DNA of 64,000 bases from Halarchaeum rubridurum (lineage in GTDB: Archaea; Halobacteriota; Halobacteria; Halobacteriales; Halobacteriaceae), in the NCBI RefSeq assembly GCF_014647115.1, contig NZ_BMOO01000004.1:310001-374000 (forward strand), given 5' to 3'. Shown here one piece after another: positions 23,486-35,004 of this stretch (positions are counted from its first letter, which is position 1; each line of letters starts with the position of its first letter). The notes beneath the pieces were generated by a model. It saw only the letters and a program-made list of their open reading frames with translations. It did no database searches and was not told the origin of the DNA. The translations under genes were made by a program, and so were the position numbers.

Positions 23486-23926
23486 ATGATGTCCCAGTCG
23501 CCGTCGGGCCGCGACCCCCATCTCACGGAGATTCAGGGGGAGGGTGCCGAACGGATCACGGCACTCAAGTGGGCGCGCTATCTCTCCGGGACCTTCGGCA
23601 GCAGCGGGGCGCTCAACGCCCTCCGGCTCTACGCCGAACTCGGCTGGATCAGCGAGGGCGTCCGCCAGACGATGACCGACTACGTCCGCGGGCTCTCGGG
23701 CGGCGCGACGAGCACCGTCGCGGGTTCCGTGGACGACGACCTCCCGAAGGAGCTCGAATCGCTCGCCGGGACGCCGTTCCACCAGCACGCGAAGTCCCTC
23801 GAGTTCATCACGACTATCGCCAACGAGAGCCTCTCGCACGTCCTCGCCTCGACGACGCTCGGCGAGGACCTCTCCGGGCCGAGCGACCTCGGCGACCCGA
23901 GCGACCTCACCGGCCCCGGCGAGTAG
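23486..23926 (+). CDS. standalone ArlD/E-domain archaellum protein
   Basis: 146 residues. The core ALKWARYLSGTFGSSGALNA followed by LRLYAELGWISEGVRQTM aligns with the C-terminal ArlD/E domain of the arlCE gene of this window (ADSGSSGALEALEYYAQIGWISRPVQRQLE-like). It therefore encodes an ArlD/E homologue without the coiled coil. It probably acts as a cytosolic scaffold that links archaellum and chemotaxis signalling. It is transcribed convergently to arlJ, outside the main operon. Two consecutive ATGs (23486, 23489) are possible starts. Confidence 0.8.
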   Translation: MMSQSPSGRDPHLTEIQGEGAERITALKWARYLSGTFGSSGALNALRLYAELGWISEGVRQTMTDYVRGLSGGATSTVAGSVDDDLPKELESLAGTPFHQHAKSLEFITTIANESLSHVLASTTLGEDLSGPSDLGDPSDLTGPGE

Positions 23927-24054: not shown

Positions 24055-25812
24055 TCAGGAGAAGGAGATGATGGACTCGGTGATTCGGATGGTGGCGAAG
24101 GCGACGATGACGCTAATCCACGTCTGGATGACGAAGTGGTGGAGCATCGTCGAGAGGTGGCCGCGGTCGGTGTAGCGGAGAATCAACGAGGAGAGGAGCG
24201 CGTTGATGAGGACGGCGACGAAGAGCAGAAACTGGAGCTGCGGGATATCGTAGACCTGCGCGCTGAGGAGACCGCCGAGGCGGCTCTGCGAGAGGTTCAT
24301 CTCGGAGGAGACCTGCTGGAATATCTGTGCGACCTGGAGGCCGACGAAGAGCGCGAACGTGTTCGCGGCCGTGATACCGTAGAGCGTCCCCGTCATCGTC
24401 CCGGTGGACTGAGAGCGCTGGTCGCGGAGCTTGAGCACCTCGGAGATGTTCGACTCGATGAGTTGGCCGAGCTGTTTCGGGTCGCCACCCATCCGGCGGC
24501 CGGTAACGTACATGTCGCTGAACTTCTGGATGAGGTAGGAGCCGGCCTCGGCGGCGAAGTAGCGCCAGGCCTCCTGTGAGTCGACGCGGAGCGCGAGGCG
24601 CTTGTAGAGGTTGTCGATCTGCTCGGTGAGCGCGCCGAAGTCCTTCGTGCGCAGCGATTCGAGGACGGAAGACGTCGAGGACTGCTTGACGCTCTCGACG
24701 GCACCGAGCGCGCGGATGAACGCGGGGAACGACTCGTCGCGTTCCTTGATACGCGATTCGGCCGTGTAGGCGACGTATCCCGGGAGCAGGAGGGGCGTGA
24801 ACGGGATGGCGAGGTAGAACACCGTCGGAATCGGGTTCCCGATCCCGAACGCGTTCGTGAGGAGGGCGTAACAGAGCCCGCCGAGGACGAAACAGAGCGC
24901 GACGCTGGCGAGGAGCGTCGCGCGGAGCTTGATGTTCCGTTCGAGCGAGACGCTGGAGCCGCCGAACCAGACGGGGTCGGAGGGCGAGACGCTGTGGATG
25001 GCGAAGACGAAGATACCCTGAACGAACGCGAAGAGGATGATGACGGCGGCGACGGGCTGCGTGGGGTCGATGCCGACGATGAAGGGGATGACCATGGCGA
25101 AGACCGCGCCGAAGGTCATCGAGAGGACGATGGACATATAGACGTCCTTCAGGAGGTCAAGGCGGTCGAGGCGCGACTCGTAGCGGACGACGAAGTTCCC
25201 GATGATGGAGTCCTGTTCTTCGAGGAGGAACTCGCTGATGTCGCGACCCGCCCCGACGGTGTACGCGAGCCGTTCGAGGAAGTCCGACATGAGCGGGCTG
25301 GAGATGCTCTCGGAGCGCATCCGGCAGGCGTCCTCCAAGCTCTGATTCCACGTGTCGACGAGGCCGACGATTCGCGCCATCTCCTCGGCGATGGCGTCGT
25401 ACTCGTCCTCCTGGGCGAGGGTGCGAAAGACCTCGACGCGGTCGATGTTCGTCGTCGAGAGGATGGTCAGGTGCGTGATGAACAGGTGGAAGTGTTCGCG
25501 AATCTGCTTGCGGCGTCTGTCCTGGAGTATCTTCGGGTAGAAGACGACGACGACCGGGAAGAAGAATCCGGTGAGGAGCGCGATGAACGTCGGCAGGAAC
25601 GACCCGACGTAGACGAGGACGACGACCGGGAAGAGGAGCCCGAGGACGAAGGAGGGGATGATGGCGAGGAGGACGTAGCGCCGGATGGGGACGTCCATGT
25701 ACCGGTAGTCCCGGAGGAGGTCGCGCAACAGCGCGCGCAGCCCCAATCCGTCGGGTTCGTCGATGTCCTGCACGCCCGCGGTCGTCGTCTCGGAGGCGGA
25801 GTCGGTCGCCAT
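24055..25812 (-). CDS. arlJ: archaellum membrane platform protein ArlJ (FlaJ)
   Basis: 585 residues, polytopic membrane protein with two GspF/T2SS-F-type domains: TM helices about 50-90, then a cytosolic loop, paired helices around 250-320, a second cytosolic part (AFIRALGAVESVKQSSTSSV) and C-terminal helices. ArlJ is the membrane core on which the ArlI ATPase assembles the archaellum. It is the last gene of the arl operon (arlI stop at 25819 lies 6 bp from its ATG). Confidence 0.95.
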   Translation of the reverse strand: MATDSASETTTAGVQDIDEPDGLGLRALLRDLLRDYRYMDVPIRRYVLLAIIPSFVLGLLFPVVVLVYVGSFLPTFIALLTGFFFPVVVVFYPKILQDRRRKQIREHFHLFITHLTILSTTNIDRVEVFRTLAQEDEYDAIAEEMARIVGLVDTWNQSLEDACRMRSESISSPLMSDFLERLAYTVGAGRDISEFLLEEQDSIIGNFVVRYESRLDRLDLLKDVYMSIVLSMTFGAVFAMVIPFIVGIDPTQPVAAVIILFAFVQGIFVFAIHSVSPSDPVWFGGSSVSLERNIKLRATLLASVALCFVLGGLCYALLTNAFGIGNPIPTVFYLAIPFTPLLLPGYVAYTAESRIKERDESFPAFIRALGAVESVKQSSTSSVLESLRTKDFGALTEQIDNLYKRLALRVDSQEAWRYFAAEAGSYLIQKFSDMYVTGRRMGGDPKQLGQLIESNISEVLKLRDQRSQSTGTMTGTLYGITAANTFALFVGLQVAQIFQQVSSEMNLSQSRLGGLLSAQVYDIPQLQFLLFVAVLINALLSSLILRYTDRGHLSTMLHHFVIQTWISVIVAFATIRITESIISFS

Positions 25813-25818
25813 CGACGG

Positions 25819-27498
25819 TCAGACCTCCGGGGTGTCCGGGAGGCCGGCGGCGCTTATCGGGAGCGCGCGGACGCCGTCGCGCTGGAAGGTGGCGATGGCG
25901 TCGTTGACCTCGTGGAACCCGAGAACGTCGGCGTCGATGAGGCGCTCGATTATCTGCGCGCGGCGTTCGAGTTCCGCGTAGATGTCGCGGGTGTCCTGGT
26001 AGCCGAGGAGTTCCGCTATCTGGTCTTCGAGGACGTGGGAGTTATTCATCCCGGTGAAGGCGACGTCGTCCTCGCGGGGGTCCCAGTTGAACACCTGTCG
26101 GGTGAGGACGCCGCCCTCCTGTTCGGAGTAGCCCTCGATCTCCTGGACGCTCGTGACGCGCCGGAGGATGTCGTCGCCCTGCTTCACGCGGTTCTGGAAG
26201 AGCGCGACGTCGCAGTTGTCCATGAAGGGTTCGGGGACGTTGATGGGGTTCCCGGTGAAGCGCTGGACCATCGAGACGATGTCGCTCGCGTGGAACGTGA
26301 GCATCACGGGGTGGCCGGTCTGGGCGGCCTGGAACGCCATCTGTCCCTCCGCCCCGCGGACCTCGCCGACGATGATGTAGTCGGGCCGGGAGCGGAGCGC
26401 CGTGGCGACGAGGTCGAACATGTCGACGTCCGTCCCCTCGTCGCCGCCCTGGTCCTCGCGGGTGAGGAGTTGCTGCCAGGCGTCGTGCGGGATGACGACC
26501 TCCGCGGTGTCCTCCGCGGTGTATATCTTCGAGTCGCGCGGGATGAACGACGTCGTCGCGTTGAGCGTCGTCGTCTTCCCGGAGGCGGTCTCGCCGACGA
26601 CGAACACCGTCCGCTCGTTCTCCAAGCAGAGCCAGAGGTAGGCGGCGAGCTTCGGCGAGAGCGTCCCCCACTTCGTAATCTGGAAGACGGAGAGGGGCAC
26701 CTCGTCGCCCTGCCGGATGGTGAGGCTCGGGCCCTTGATGGAGACGTCGTCGGAGTAGACGATGTTGATACGCGAGCCGTCCGGGAGCGTCGAGTCGATT
26801 ATCGGGTTCGAGTCGCTCACGGGCGTGTCCATCCGTTCGCCCATGTTCTGGAGCCACTGCTCGAACTCCTCGTTGCTCCCGAAGTCGACGGTCGTCGGGA
26901 GGAGCCCGAACGTCCCGTGGTCGACGTAACACTCCTCAGCCCCGATGACGTGGATGTCCTCGTTCTCGGGGTCGCTCATGATCGGATTGAGCGGCCCGAG
27001 CCCCGCGATGTCGCGCTGGAGGCGGTAGCGAATCTTCTCGTAGGTGTCCTCCTCCAGGGGGATGAGCGTCCCGACGAACGACTGTATCGTGCTGCCCGCG
27101 CCCCCGACGGAGACGACACCGTCGAGGATGTCGTCGAGGTGCGTCTCGAAGTCCCGCTTCGCGGTCGGGCCGGGTTCGGTGACGCTGCGTTCGAGCAGGC
27201 GCTGGCGCACCTCCTCGTACTGCTCGCGCTCCTCGCTCGTCAGCGACGGCTCGATGACGTGGTAGCGCGTCGGGATACCCGTGTCGCCGAACACCTGGTA
27301 GAACGTCGGGTACTCCGAATCCGTCGAGTAGACGATGTTCGGGTTCGAGACCGCGTGCTCGCCGTCTGGTTCGTCGACGAGCATCGGGTACTCGCCGTAC
27401 TCCGCGTACATCCGTTCGAGGTGCTCGTCGAGATGCGGGTGCTCGGCGGCGAGCGATTCGAGTTCCGGCGACGGGTTCGGGGTGCCGTGCTCCGACAT
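25819..27498 (-). CDS. arlI: archaellum motor/assembly ATPase ArlI (FlaI)
   Basis: 559 residues, secretion-superfamily (GspE/VirB11) ATPase. Walker A GETASGKTTT near residue 300, the Asp-box region ETTTLNATTSFIPRDSKIYTAEDT, Walker B IIVGEVRG (about 375) and His box TFHASD (about 405). N-terminal acidic region precedes the domain, as in haloarchaea. It drives both filament assembly and rotation. Its stop is 6 bp before the arlJ start; its ATG lies 2 bp from the arlH stop. Confidence 0.96.
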   Translation of the reverse strand: MSEHGTPNPSPELESLAAEHPHLDEHLERMYAEYGEYPMLVDEPDGEHAVSNPNIVYSTDSEYPTFYQVFGDTGIPTRYHVIEPSLTSEEREQYEEVRQRLLERSVTEPGPTAKRDFETHLDDILDGVVSVGGAGSTIQSFVGTLIPLEEDTYEKIRYRLQRDIAGLGPLNPIMSDPENEDIHVIGAEECYVDHGTFGLLPTTVDFGSNEEFEQWLQNMGERMDTPVSDSNPIIDSTLPDGSRINIVYSDDVSIKGPSLTIRQGDEVPLSVFQITKWGTLSPKLAAYLWLCLENERTVFVVGETASGKTTTLNATTSFIPRDSKIYTAEDTAEVVIPHDAWQQLLTREDQGGDEGTDVDMFDLVATALRSRPDYIIVGEVRGAEGQMAFQAAQTGHPVMLTFHASDIVSMVQRFTGNPINVPEPFMDNCDVALFQNRVKQGDDILRRVTSVQEIEGYSEQEGGVLTRQVFNWDPREDDVAFTGMNNSHVLEDQIAELLGYQDTRDIYAELERRAQIIERLIDADVLGFHEVNDAIATFQRDGVRALPISAAGLPDTPEV

Positions 27499-27500
27499 GG

Positions 27501-28256
27501 TCAGGCGACGGTGCGGGTGACGATGGTCATACCGCGGTTCACTTGGACGTCGAAGCTGATACTGTCGTCGACCTGGTCGCCCATGTTGGCGAACTTCCGC
27601 ACGATTATCTCGCGGCGGACGTCGCCCGCGACCTGCTTCGTGTTGAGCTGGAGGTAGACGCCGCTCGTGTCGCGCAGCGGCCGGAGCGCCCGCCCGCTCA
27701 ACGAGTCGGGGTTGACGGTGAGGACGACCGTCTTGTCGTCGGCGAGCAGCTGCCGGAAGAAGGAGAGGACGTTCTGGATGACGTCGTCCTCCCGATTCTG
27801 CTCGACGGCGCGCTGGAACTGCGGGTCGCTACGGAGGATGGCGTCGAAGCCGTCGATGACGACGACGTCGCTCTGCCACATCGTCCCCGCGTGCATCATC
27901 CGCGTGAGGAGTTCGCGCCGCGGGCCGTCCGCGTCGTCCCCCTGCTCGTCGATGGCGTCGAAGGTGTCGACGTTCGCGTGCAAGAAGAGCAGGCGCTCGC
28001 GGAGGAGGTGGTCCACCGGGTCGTAGTCGAGCGAGCGCGTCTGCTCGATGAAGCTCGCGGACGTCTCCTCCTGGGAGACGTAGGTGACCGTCGTCCCGGT
28101 CTCGCAGAGCCCGTAGCAAAAGCGCTGGCCGAGGACGCTCTTGCCCGCACCGTGTTCGCCCTCGACGAGGACGAGACTTCCCGCGGGAAGGCCGCCGCCG
28201 AAGGCGTTCGATACCCGGTCGCTGTCTTCGAGCCCGAGTTCGTAGAGGTCTGTCAT
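27501..28256 (-). CDS. arlH: archaellum regulatory ATPase ArlH (FlaH)
   Basis: 251 residues, RecA/KaiC-like. Walker A GEHGAGKS is at 33-40, Walker B VVVIDGFDA is near 130, and the STSR-like switch is near VVLTVNPDSLSGRAL. ArlH binds ATP without strong hydrolysis and regulates ArlI. It is the fourth gene of the operon, tightly packed between arlG (4 bp) and arlI (2 bp). Confidence 0.95.
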   Translation of the reverse strand: MTDLYELGLEDSDRVSNAFGGGLPAGSLVLVEGEHGAGKSVLGQRFCYGLCETGTTVTYVSQEETSASFIEQTRSLDYDPVDHLLRERLLFLHANVDTFDAIDEQGDDADGPRRELLTRMMHAGTMWQSDVVVIDGFDAILRSDPQFQRAVEQNREDDVIQNVLSFFRQLLADDKTVVLTVNPDSLSGRALRPLRDTSGVYLQLNTKQVAGDVRREIIVRKFANMGDQVDDSISFDVQVNRGMTIVTRTVA

Positions 28257-28260
28257 TGGT

Positions 28261-28716
28261 CTAGAGGTAGAAGCGGATGGTCGAGGAGGTCCCGCCGTGG
28301 AGCACCGTCGCGCGGTGCGCGCCGGCGTCGAGGTCCCGATTCACCGTGACGCGGACGGTCTCGTCCGGTGCCCAGACGCCGTCGCCGTCCCCGAGGTCGG
28401 TGACGGTCGTCCCGTTCGCGTACCTCCCGTCGACGAGGACGTCGATTGGTCCACCGTCGGCGGCGAGCGTCTTCGAGCCGCTGTTCTTCACGAGCAGGGT
28501 GACGGTCTCGTTCTCGTCGTCGTATATCGCCTCGGGGCTCCCGGGGTCGCTGACGATGGTGACGTCCGAGGCGATGTCGTCCGCCGTGTTCCCGCCCTGC
28601 TGGCTGAGCGTCCCCTGGAGGTCGATGACGCTCCCGGTGAGCGTCATCGCCACCGACGTGGCGACGAGGAGCGACGCGATGAAGATGATGAGCTTGGAGA
28701 CGGAGGAGCCGGCCAT
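28261..28716 (-). CDS. arlG: archaellum stator protein ArlG (FlaG)
   Basis: 151 residues. One N-terminal TM helix (about 8-28, IIFIASLLVATSVAMTLTGSV) and an extracellular beta-sandwich of archaellin type (VTIVSDPGSPEAIYDDENET, then ETVRVTVNRDLDAGAHR). ArlG and ArlF form the pseudoperiplasmic stator that binds the S-layer. The start ATG abuts the arlF stop codon. A second ArlG-like protein with a propeller is encoded at 33727. Confidence 0.92.
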   Translation of the reverse strand: MAGSSVSKLIIFIASLLVATSVAMTLTGSVIDLQGTLSQQGGNTADDIASDVTIVSDPGSPEAIYDDENETVTLLVKNSGSKTLAADGGPIDVLVDGRYANGTTVTDLGDGDGVWAPDETVRVTVNRDLDAGAHRATVLHGGTSSTIRFYL

Positions 28717-29160
28717 CTAGCTCACCACCGTGACGTTCCCCGTCGCGCGCGAGATACCGCCCTTCGTGGCGACGAGCGCGCGCGTGGGCTGTGCGGAGCG
28801 TTCGACCGTGACCGTCAGGGTCTCACCGGGTGCCCAGGCCGTCCGACTGCTCCGGCTCTCGACGGCCGTCCGGCGCTCCGAGACGTAGTCGCCATCGAGG
28901 AGCAGGTCGACGTCGGCCACCGTGAGCGTCGTCGTGCCGACGTTCTCGGCGGTGAGCGTGAACGTGTCCGCTTCGGCGTCGTACGTGGCGTTGCGCAGTT
29001 CGACATCGGTGTTCTCGATGGCGACGGCGTGGTTCGTCCGGTCGTTGAACGCGCGCTCGACCTCGTCGGCGCTCGATTGCACCGCGGGGACGATGACGCC
29101 GGCGCTGATGAGCGCGGCGATCAGGAGGACCGCGACGGCACCGCTCGTGCTGAACCCCAT
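28717..29160 (-). CDS. arlF: archaellum stator protein ArlF (FlaF)
   Basis: 147 residues. N-terminal TM helix (residues about 6-28) and an exported beta-sandwich containing NATYDAEADTFTLTAENVGTTTL. It binds S-layer protein in crenarchaeal systems and pairs with ArlG. The start and stop codons abut those of arlCE and arlG with no intergenic bases. Confidence 0.92.
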   Translation of the reverse strand: MGFSTSGAVAVLLIAALISAGVIVPAVQSSADEVERAFNDRTNHAVAIENTDVELRNATYDAEADTFTLTAENVGTTTLTVADVDLLLDGDYVSERRTAVESRSSRTAWAPGETLTVTVERSAQPTRALVATKGGISRATGNVTVVS

Positions 29161-30117
29161 CTACTCGCCGCGCTCCCTGGCGATGCGCTGGATGTGTTGG
29201 GAGCTCCGGTCGTGGACCTCGACCGGAATCTCTTCGAGACTCTGTTCGGCGTCGGGGTCGATTGCGTCCTCGTCCGCGCCGCTTATCAGGGTCTCCAGTT
29301 GGCGCTGGACCGGGCGGCTTATCCAGCCGATCTGGGCGTAGTATTCGAGCGCCTCGAGCGCGCCCGAGGAGCCGGCGGTGTCGAGCAGCATCGAGAGCCA
29401 CCGGAGGAGGAGGATGTCCGTCGCGTACGTCGAGGAGAGCGAGCTGAGGTACGCGTCGCCGTCCGCGACCGGCGTCGAGGACGCCGAGTTGCTCCCCTGG
29501 TCGGGTGACGGCGAGGCGCGCTCGGTCGTCTGCGCACCGTCCGCCTCGACGGGGCGACGGGACTCCGCGGTCTCCGCGTCGGCGTCGCCGTCGTCCGACC
29601 CCGCGGAGCGCTTGACGTCGTCGAAGCTGACGACGTCGTCACCGGCGTCCCCGTCAGCGTCGGGGTCCATGACCCCGTAGGGGCCGTCCTGTTCGGGGCG
29701 CTCGAAGTCGCTGTCGCCCGCGAAGGGGTTGACGTCCTCGACGAGCTGGTCGTAGACGCCGAGGAGCGTCGCGTGATTGTCCTCGAGGTGGTCGAGGCGC
29801 GCTTCGAGGTCCTCGCGGTTCTGTCTGACTTCCTCGATGGCCGACTCGTTGTCCTCGACGTCGGCTTCGAGTTCGTCGATGCGATAGTTGACGTCGTCGA
29901 GGTCGTCCGAGGTGGCGTTCGCCGACCCCGTCGATTCGGCGGTCGCCTCCGCGGGTTCGTCGTCGGCCTGCACCGCGGCGTCGCTCGACGGCTCGGCGTC
30001 GGCCTCCGTGGACGTATCGGTCGCATCGCTCGAATCGGACGCGTCCGCCTCATCTGCGTCTGACTCGCCCACGAACGCACCCAACCCGAGCTCGTCGACG
30101 ACATCACGGGCGTTCAT
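29161..30117 (-). CDS. arlCE: fused archaellum cytosolic proteins ArlC and ArlE (ArlCE)
   Basis: 318 residues, acidic and without membrane segments. Residues about 1-75 are low-complexity Asp/Ser, 75-150 a coiled coil (LDDVNYRIDELEADVEDNES), 150-240 an acidic linker and 240-318 the ArlD/E domain (LRWLSMLLDTAGSSGALEAL). In euryarchaea ArlC/D/E form the cytosolic ring that connects to CheF/CheY signalling. It is the first gene of the six-gene operon arlCE-F-G-H-I-J; possible TATA TATATC is near 30184, 60 bp from the start. Confidence 0.92.
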   Translation of the reverse strand: MNARDVVDELGLGAFVGESDADEADASDSSDATDTSTEADAEPSSDAAVQADDEPAEATAESTGSANATSDDLDDVNYRIDELEADVEDNESAIEEVRQNREDLEARLDHLEDNHATLLGVYDQLVEDVNPFAGDSDFERPEQDGPYGVMDPDADGDAGDDVVSFDDVKRSAGSDDGDADAETAESRRPVEADGAQTTERASPSPDQGSNSASSTPVADGDAYLSSLSSTYATDILLLRWLSMLLDTAGSSGALEALEYYAQIGWISRPVQRQLETLISGADEDAIDPDAEQSLEEIPVEVHDRSSQHIQRIARERGE

Positions 30118-32954: not shown

Positions 32955-33575
32955 TTACAGGGAGACCGCGCCGCCGTCGCTCTGTGAGCTGAGCGTCTGC
33001 GGCGTGGAGGCCACGTACGTGTACTGGCTCCCGGACTGCGTCACGATCTGGATCGTCGCGTCCTCGCCGGCCTGCAGCGGCTTCAGCGCGTCCGCGTTCT
33101 TGTCCAGCGCGATGTTGAGCTTCATCCGGTCGGTCTTCTCGTTGAGGACCGGGAGGGAGCCGTCCTCGTCGCGGATCGCAGACACGGAGAACTCCGCGTC
33201 CGCCGCGGAGGCGTTATCGGCGTACGTCAGCGTCTGCGCGCCGTGCGGCCCGATCCACTTGATCGTGGACCCACCGAGGTCGATTGAATCCGCGCCCGGC
33301 GACTGCATCACCGTCAGTTCCGTCTGATTGACGACCTTCTCACCGCTCGAATTGTTGTGCACGTCGCCGACGCCCGAGATCACGACGACCTGGTTCGAGA
33401 CCTGCTGTGCGGAGTCCTGACTCGTGGCGGACGCCTTGTTCTGCAGGAAGCCGGTCGTGTTGATGAGCACCGTCGCCGCGATCGCCGCGACGAGGATCAT
33501 CGCGATGAACACGACCAGGGTCTCGATACCGACCTGGCCGCGTTCGTAGTCGAAGTCTGGGAGGCTGAGTTCCAT
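32955..33575 (-). CDS. arlA: archaellin (archaeal flagellin)
   Basis: 206 residues. Class III signal peptide MELSLPDFDYERG, cleaved by prepilin peptidase ArlK before QVGIETLVVFIAMILVAAIA, the hydrophobic archaellin helix; the exported rest carries potential N-glycosylation sequons (NNS, NQT, NAS). The length is short for haloarchaeal archaellins (about 200-220 is usual). It is the filament subunit of the archaellum encoded at 24-30 kb. ATG 33575 is preferred to 33602 because the signal peptide starts there; a TTTTTC box is at 33605-33610. Confidence 0.94.
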   Translation of the reverse strand: MELSLPDFDYERGQVGIETLVVFIAMILVAAIAATVLINTTGFLQNKASATSQDSAQQVSNQVVVISGVGDVHNNSSGEKVVNQTELTVMQSPGADSIDLGGSTIKWIGPHGAQTLTYADNASAADAEFSVSAIRDEDGSLPVLNEKTDRMKLNIALDKNADALKPLQAGEDATIQIVTQSGSQYTYVASTPQTLSSQSDGGAVSL

Positions 33576-33726: not shown

Positions 33727-35004
33727 TCAGGCGATGCCGACGCCCTTGTTGACCGGGATGCGCTGGCCGTCGGCGTCGTGGACGTAGCCGGTCGTCCCGT
33801 CCGCGTTCACGTAGCGGAGGGAGGTGCTGCTGCTCGAATCGACGAAGACGACTTCGGGCTCGCCGTCGCGGTCGACGTCGTCGACGCTGAGGCCCGTGTT
33901 GGAGGCCTTGGTCTCGGTCGTCAGCTGTCGCTTGTTGTTGTCCGAGTCGGCGAGGTGGACGTAGCCGGAGCCGCCGATGTACGGGACGTAGACGGTGCCA
34001 TCACCGTAGAACTCCGTCGGCTGACCCGCGGCGTACGTGTTCGCGGCGCTGACGCCGACGCTGGCCGGCGTCTCGTCGGGCGAGACGTAGTAGAGCCCGC
34101 CGCTGCTCCCGAGGTAGATGATGTCCCGGGTGCCGTCGCCGTCGTAGTCGGCGACCCCGAGGACGGAGCCGGCACCTTGCGTGCTGCTCACCTCGGCGAC
34201 GAGCGTACCGCTGGTCGCGTCGGGGCCCGTCCGGCGGAGGTCCTTGTTCGGACCGACGTAGAAGACGGAGGGGCCGCTCCCGTTCCACGACCCGGTGGCG
34301 AGGTGGGACTCCGACGACGGCGGGTCGCCGGGGAGCGTCTGCGGGGCGTCGGTCCCGTCGACGAGGTGGAGCGTGTCGTTCTGGACGTACGGGACGCCGA
34401 AGGTGCCGTCGCCGTCGAAGTCGACGGTGGCGGAGCCGACGACCTGCGGTTCGTTGCTCCGATGGGTCGTCACGCTCGCCTCGTCGTACCGGATGCTGTT
34501 GAGCGACGCGTCGCCCGCGTAGACGACGATGCCGTCGGCGAGCCCCGTGCCTCCGCCGCCGCGGTACGGGAACGAGAAGAAGTCCCGCGATTCGGCGGCG
34601 GTGACGACGACGCGGTGCGCGCCGCCGTCGAGCGACGTGTTCGCCTGGATGCGCGCGACGTAGCCCGGCCGCCAGTACGAGCCGTCGACGACGGTGACGT
34701 TCGTGACGGTCACGGGCTCGCCGTCGACGAGGACGAGCAGGGAGTCCCGGTCGGTCGGGAGCCGTAGTTCGCCGGTGTTCTTCGCGAGGAGGGTGAGCGT
34801 GTTCGTCTCGGCGTCGTAGAGGGTTGCGCCGGGGTCGCTGATGACGGTGACGCTCTGTGAGACCTGGTCGGCGTAGTCGGAGCCGATGTCCTCGATGGCG
34901 TGGCCGACGTCGCCGGCGATGTTCGTGGCGGTGCCGCCGACGATGGTGCTGAGCGAGATGGCCGCGATGAAGAGGATGACGTGCGTGATGGATACTTCGG
35001 CCAT
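33727..35004 (-). CDS. ArlG-like stator domain fused to FG-GAP/VCBS beta-propeller
   Basis: 425 residues. Residues 1-28 form an N-terminal TM helix (HVILFIAAISLSTIVGGTAT). Residues about 45-140 align with ArlG of this window (SVTVISDPGATLYDAETNTL, then TLLAKNTGEL and TSLDGGAHRVVV). Residues about 158-400 hold about six blade-like repeats, with Ca2+-binding loops DFDGDG (195-200), DYDGDG (286-291) and DVDRDG (376-381). Such propellers in integrins and FG-GAP proteins bind ligands outside the cell. The protein would be anchored in the membrane with an extracellular propeller. ATG 35004 is chosen; longer reading is basic shadow. Confidence 0.85.
   Translation of the reverse strand: MAEVSITHVILFIAAISLSTIVGGTATNIAGDVGHAIEDIGSDYADQVSQSVTVISDPGATLYDAETNTLTLLAKNTGELRLPTDRDSLLVLVDGEPVTVTNVTVVDGSYWRPGYVARIQANTSLDGGAHRVVVTAAESRDFFSFPYRGGGGTGLADGIVVYAGDASLNSIRYDEASVTTHRSNEPQVVGSATVDFDGDGTFGVPYVQNDTLHLVDGTDAPQTLPGDPPSSESHLATGSWNGSGPSVFYVGPNKDLRRTGPDATSGTLVAEVSSTQGAGSVLGVADYDGDGTRDIIYLGSSGGLYYVSPDETPASVGVSAANTYAAGQPTEFYGDGTVYVPYIGGSGYVHLADSDNNKRQLTTETKASNTGLSVDDVDRDGEPEVVFVDSSSSTSLRYVNADGTTGYVHDADGQRIPVNKGVGIA

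Follow-up and report, generated by a model that had tools for sequence, protein, structure and literature searches.

To our knowledge, the only role assigned to ArlF and ArlG is that of stator components in the archaellum motor. A 64,000-nucleotide stretch of the Halarchaeum rubridurum genome (the window) encodes, beside the archaellin gene, a protein in which an ArlG-type domain is followed by a predicted β-propeller. This arrangement raises the question of whether an ArlG copy outside the arl operon still serves the motor or has become the mount for a head with a function of its own.

The fusion gene and its two parts

The initial annotation had described the gene as an ArlG-type anchor carrying an extracellular propeller, located outside the arl operon and beside the archaellin gene, and sequence and gene order agree with this architecture. 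The coordinates it gave are exact; the strand, which it left unstated, is minus. The relevant features of the window are:

33727-35004, minus strand: arlG2-propeller fusion gene, 425 amino acids, ATG at 35002-35004, stop at 33727, strong coding score
34561-35004, minus strand: ArlG-type domain, residues 1-148, a predicted N-terminal membrane helix and archaellin-fold sandwich (NF052591, PF01917 and a low-confidence model)
34921-34989, minus strand: N-terminal hydrophobic helix, about residues 6-28, read from the sequence, without a preceding class III (prepilin peptidase) motif; helix 6-40 in the model
33730-34548, minus strand: predicted six-repeat FG-GAP-type propeller, residues 153-425, running to the C terminus (PF13517, HHalign, profile matches and Foldseek on a weak model)
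34405-34422, minus strand: DFDGDG calcium-type loop, residues 195-200, from the sequence
34132-34149, minus strand: DYDGDG calcium-type loop, residues 286-291, from the sequence
33862-33879, minus strand: DVDRDG calcium-type loop, residues 376-381, from the sequence
32955-33575, minus strand: archaellin, immediately downstream of the fusion gene (PF01917, 117 bits)
28261-28716, minus strand: canonical arlG of the arl operon (NF052591, 157 bits)
28717-29160, minus strand: arlF (NF052590, 135 bits)
29161-30117, minus strand: fused arlCDE, within the arl operon
24055-30117, minus strand: arl operon, arlCDE-F-G-H-I-J, with the end of arlJ at 24055

The arl operon lies about 3.6 kb from the fusion gene on the same strand, and its slot between arlF and arlH is filled by the separate arlG. 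The neighbouring archaellin gene is the only one in the genome, which is 99.9% complete. The fusion gene precedes archaellin in this genome (G000) and in two others (G003 and G024), which together represent two genera. Linkage to archaellin does not hold as a general rule, since the fusions of G009 and G017, two of the five found, are distant from both the arl and the archaellin genes; a role in the archaellum is therefore not obligatory.

G000 and G003 share a conserved block, CCACACGAGTTATCCCCGTGG, just upstream of the fusion start (35004; upstream of 8922 in locus L048). A different conserved element, TTTTTCAG, precedes the archaellin gene, so each of the two genes may have its own transcript. 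Beside arlJ, on the opposite strand (23486-23926, plus), the window also contains a separate short gene for an ArlD/E-like C-terminal segment; a similar short gene accompanies the arl genes of locus L049 and of loci from genus g3.

Residues 1-145 score 129.4 bits against the NCBIfam model for ArlG (NF052591), which is above the curated equivalog cut-off of 110 and bears out the assignment of the N-terminal 140 or so residues to the ArlG type. The anchor domain also scores 63.9 bits against Pfam Arch_flagellin (PF01917). An ArlF-type identity was rejected, the score against the ArlF model being only 35.9 bits. Like ArlG (FlaG), the anchor consists of an N-terminal helix and a predicted archaellin-fold sandwich and lacks a class III signal peptide, but the protein differs in being a second copy, encoded outside the arl operon, and in carrying a 275-residue propeller where ArlG has about 150 residues with no further domain. 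The equivalog model names such proteins 'archaellum stator protein ArlG', an annotation that may thus mislead.

The prepilin-peptidase motif [KR][GA] before the hydrophobic stretch is absent from all nine N termini examined in the subfamily to which the anchor belongs (ArlG2, below). ArlG and ArlF also lack it, while such a motif is present in the neighbouring archaellin and in almost all pilin-type carriers of the propeller; the strict motif scan missed one such carrier (L186), where RGQLLLVAG is visible.

The AlphaFold model of the whole protein, built from few sequences, is poor (mean pLDDT 52). Its ArlG part nevertheless has the six strands expected for a sandwich (residues 52-55, 69-76, 89-93, 96-105, 116-122 and 131-136) at a pLDDT of about 70-83, which agrees in part with the sandwich that the initial annotation expected from structure prediction. 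Sequence search reached no solved ArlG structure, and a single-sequence search of solved structures with the fusion protein gave no match.

From its sequence, the C-terminal region of about 275 residues is predicted to be a six-bladed FG-GAP-type propeller. Three stretches of it match Pfam FG-GAP_3 (PF13517) at 29.7 bits, against a cut-off of 26.9. When a 40-sequence family alignment was cut at the loops and the pieces compared by HHalign, six repeats of 42-50 residues were defined; repeats 2-6 match one another in register (E values of 1e-5 to 3e-12), and repeat 1 matches the others weakly, although in register (3e-4 to 9e-3). Gap-free autocorrelation of the window's propeller alone was not significant (183 of 2000 shuffles), so the evidence for repeats comes from the family and not from the single sequence. 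The six or so FG-GAP/VCBS-like blades proposed earlier thus agree with the repeats, while the DxDxDG loops proposed with them are kept in three of five cases (195, 286 and 376), those at 239 and 331 being degenerate.

A profile of six heads gives weak but consistent matches to propellers in the PDB, namely CRTAC1 (cartilage acidic protein 1), the designed 'Cake' and ITFG2. The head shares repeats with DxDxDG loops with FG-GAP/VCBS propellers such as CRTAC1 and ITFG2, but is only distantly related to them. Prediction of the head alone reached a pLDDT of 32; the hits of a Foldseek search with the weak model are mainly propellers, PLL-type lectins first, which is suggestive only.

Distribution of ArlG2 and other carriers of the propeller

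A profile of the ArlG part was run over 392 genomes of the order and separates an ArlG2 subfamily, scoring at least 217 bits, from all operon ArlGs, which score at most 170 bits. The subfamily comprises 11 sequences, all in the window's family, five with the head and six headless. The five full fusions occur in 5 of 26 family genomes and in three genera, with intact frame and conserved length. Operon-type ArlG is present in all 11 genomes with ArlG2, and no ArlG2 occurs in the four genomes of the family that have no ArlG; a limited number of candidates was scored per genome, so that such absences are approximate. The headless copies examined lie away from the arl genes. In a tree of ArlG domains, built without archaellins, the ArlG2 sequences split into two clades, both well supported, that fall inside ArlG and apart from ArlF, and a single-origin constraint on all ArlG2 domains (AU p=0.27) is compatible with one or more origins. 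A scan of contigs revealed one relative, a Halorussus protein that matches the ArlG part only. The ArlG2 profile found no relatives among viral contigs, and a viral origin of the fusion was rejected, there being no PHROG match.

The closest relatives of the head are haloarchaeal surface and pilin-like proteins. The same propeller is found on DUF7261 pilin-like proteins and on type IV pilins that score 52, 64 and 40 bits against Pfam Pilin_N; related propellers occur on another pilin-like group, 'VQVGA', and on secreted proteins, several of which have PKD domains and PGF-CTERM-like ends. The tree of 40 propellers separates the secreted type from all others (100/99) and places the ArlG2 heads at two positions. 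Forcing the five ArlG2 heads into one clade costs 27.9 lnL units and is rejected (AU p=0.0052), which indicates that ArlG-type anchors acquired the propeller at least twice, or exchanged it. The pilin-type carriers have the prepilin-peptidase motif and are probably displayed by filaments, whereas ArlG2 lacks it and would be anchored like ArlG.

In G249 the DUF7261-propeller gene is part of a run of pilin-like genes that includes a T2SSF/PilC platform gene (91 bits). The loci with a DUF7261-propeller gene inside such a run are L175 (746-9282), where a PilC/T2SSF gene is part of the run, and L184 (6803-10706). A conserved gene whose product looks like a response-regulator receiver protein is found beside the DUF7261-propeller gene in L059 (5589-7409), L185 (7377-9170), L186 (6266-8056) and L183 (5920-7710), and three of these loci have a PEP carboxylase-like gene nearby as well. 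In three genomes of family f4 the Pilin_N-propeller gene is near an FtsZ-looking gene (GGAGNNTVNRL; L170 7259-8548, L171 at about 7068 and L172 at about 7281). A lone relative of the propeller, 33% identical to the pilin-type head, is encoded on the Salinibacter ruber plasmid pSR84 (L212 3674-4912), possibly reflecting transfer between haloarchaea and Salinibacter.

Evolutionary rates and the proposed role

Rates were compared between G000 and G003 by a simple counting method. The anchor domain is conserved (88.5% identical, dN/dS 0.26), as is the operon ArlG (81.5%, 0.285). The head is only 48.9% identical and its dN/dS of 0.85, to which all six blades contribute, is the highest among the genes compared; with one genome pair and this method, diversifying selection and relaxed constraint are not separable, and the high value may be due to relaxed constraint instead of ligand-driven selection. 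The corresponding dN/dS values are 0.32 for archaellin, 0.07 for ArlI and 0.09 for ValS, and a related propeller on a secreted protein (74.8% identical in the same pair) gives 0.52.

We propose, with a probability of roughly 0.6, that ArlG2 is an anchored protein whose binding head evolves fast and is displayed at the S-layer or outside it, and that it is neither a canonical stator subunit nor a pilin. The proposal joins the lack of a prepilin-peptidase site to the published model in which ArlG assembles into an open strand beneath the S-layer and the S-layer-binding ArlF caps this strand (PMC8667602). The N-terminal helix would keep the protein in the membrane, with the archaellin-fold sandwich in the space under the S-layer and the six-bladed propeller, stabilised by its calcium-type loops, presented at or beyond it. 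As the mount, the ArlG part could probably still pair with ArlG-type subunits or form short ArlG-like strands, which could occur either at the archaellum base or independently of it. The propeller would be an exchangeable head for a surface ligand, such as an S-layer glycan, an exopolysaccharide or another cell. A ligand-binding or adhesive variant, one of the roles put forward in the initial annotation, is favoured by the pilin-borne propellers, by the fast head on a conserved anchor and by the lectin-type modules on other ArlG paralogues described below.

An alternative or accessory stator, with ArlG2 inserted in the ArlG/ArlF motor strand and the propeller acting as a second S-layer clamp that tunes torque or anchoring, is rather unlikely. 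It would account for the passing of the ArlG equivalog cut-off, for the position beside the sole archaellin gene and the same order in two other genomes, and for the confinement of ArlG2 to genomes with operon-type ArlG, and it agrees with the model of ArlG strands capped by S-layer-binding ArlF (PMC8667602). However, every ArlG2 genome already has an operon ArlG, accompanied by ArlF in those whose operon was read, two of the fusions, like the headless copies examined, are encoded apart from the arl genes, and such rapid evolution would be unexpected for a structural clamp. We consider it improbable that the protein is a tip or minor archaellin, built into the filament so that its head is borne to the tip, as in the modular pilins of bacteria. 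The archaellin fold, the adjoining archaellin gene, the same head on true type IV pilins and the frequency of modular pilins in bacteria (PMC8179133) speak for such a protein, but the [KR][GA] motif is missing in nine of nine ArlG2 N termini, and the domain scores as ArlG and groups with ArlG, not ArlF, in the tree without archaellins. That the fusion is decaying or drifting without a selected role is very unlikely: a head dN/dS near 0.85 and the sporadic occurrence in 5 of 26 family genomes would fit, yet the frame is intact in five genomes of three genera, length and repeat framework are preserved, the anchor is strongly conserved, and the head has been captured repeatedly and independently.

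An anchored ArlG2 with a putative binding head would also differ from the known modular systems. It resembles modular type IV pilins such as PilB and PilC of Streptococcus sanguinis in having a filament-superfamily subunit with a C-terminal grafted module (PMC8179133), here PF01917 and a propeller of putative function, but its carrier is an ArlG paralogue without the class III signal peptide. The survey of modular pilins covers bacterial pilins, and the word archaea is absent from its text (PMC8179133). A propeller is likewise linked to the type IV filament superfamily in the tip adhesin PilC/PilY1 (PMC8179133), but there minor pilins hold PilY1 as a protein of its own, with a propeller of family IPR008707, whereas the propeller of the fusion is covalently part of the anchor and FG-GAP-like. 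A census of archaeal type IV pili lists FlaG as single copy, and the terms propeller, VCBS and FG-GAP do not occur in its text (PMC4858521). The open-access literature searched (subscription papers and preprints were outside its scope) contained no description of an ArlG or archaellin with such modules and no role assigned to this domain order.

Other heads on ArlG paralogues

Orphan ArlG paralogues outside the arl operon are also found in another haloarchaeal family (f8), where they form one clade (100/99):

L213 8714-10237 (minus strand), L214 9062-9826 (plus strand) and L215-L244: orphan ArlG loci of f8, whose C-terminal modules are of the laminin-G lectin, PQQ_2 propeller or Ig-like type

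Where tested, their ArlG parts pass the ArlG cut-off. The orphans of G210, G340, G367 and G176 carry a laminin-G/concanavalin-like module (two were scanned and match Laminin_G_3 at 71-75 bits; the others are assigned by similarity), and that of G299 an Ig-like part and a PQQ_2 propeller (165 bits). Most of the others have an Ig-like-looking tail of about 100 residues, the single one scanned matching Big_2 only weakly, and several are headless. A single origin of ArlG2 and the f8 orphans gave AU p=0.38 in a constraint test and is compatible with one or more origins.

These paralogues tentatively suggest that in haloarchaea duplicated ArlG may be a general mount for exchangeable heads (FG-GAP at least twice, PQQ, laminin-G and Ig-like), separate from the versions displayed on pili, and that these heads may undergo rapid diversification, for instance through an arms race with viruses or through the recognition of other cells. 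If spare ArlG copies do mount binding heads, the anchor of a motor would have been put to a new use as a platform for adhesins or receptors, by a route separate from pili, and the pattern of conserved anchor and fast head offers a direct test, in haloarchaea, of the ligands of the heads. In both f8 neighbourhoods inspected, a gene beginning MIFEDLPTTPTSEELIDKAFSRA, which we take to be NOG1-like, adjoins the ArlG copy.
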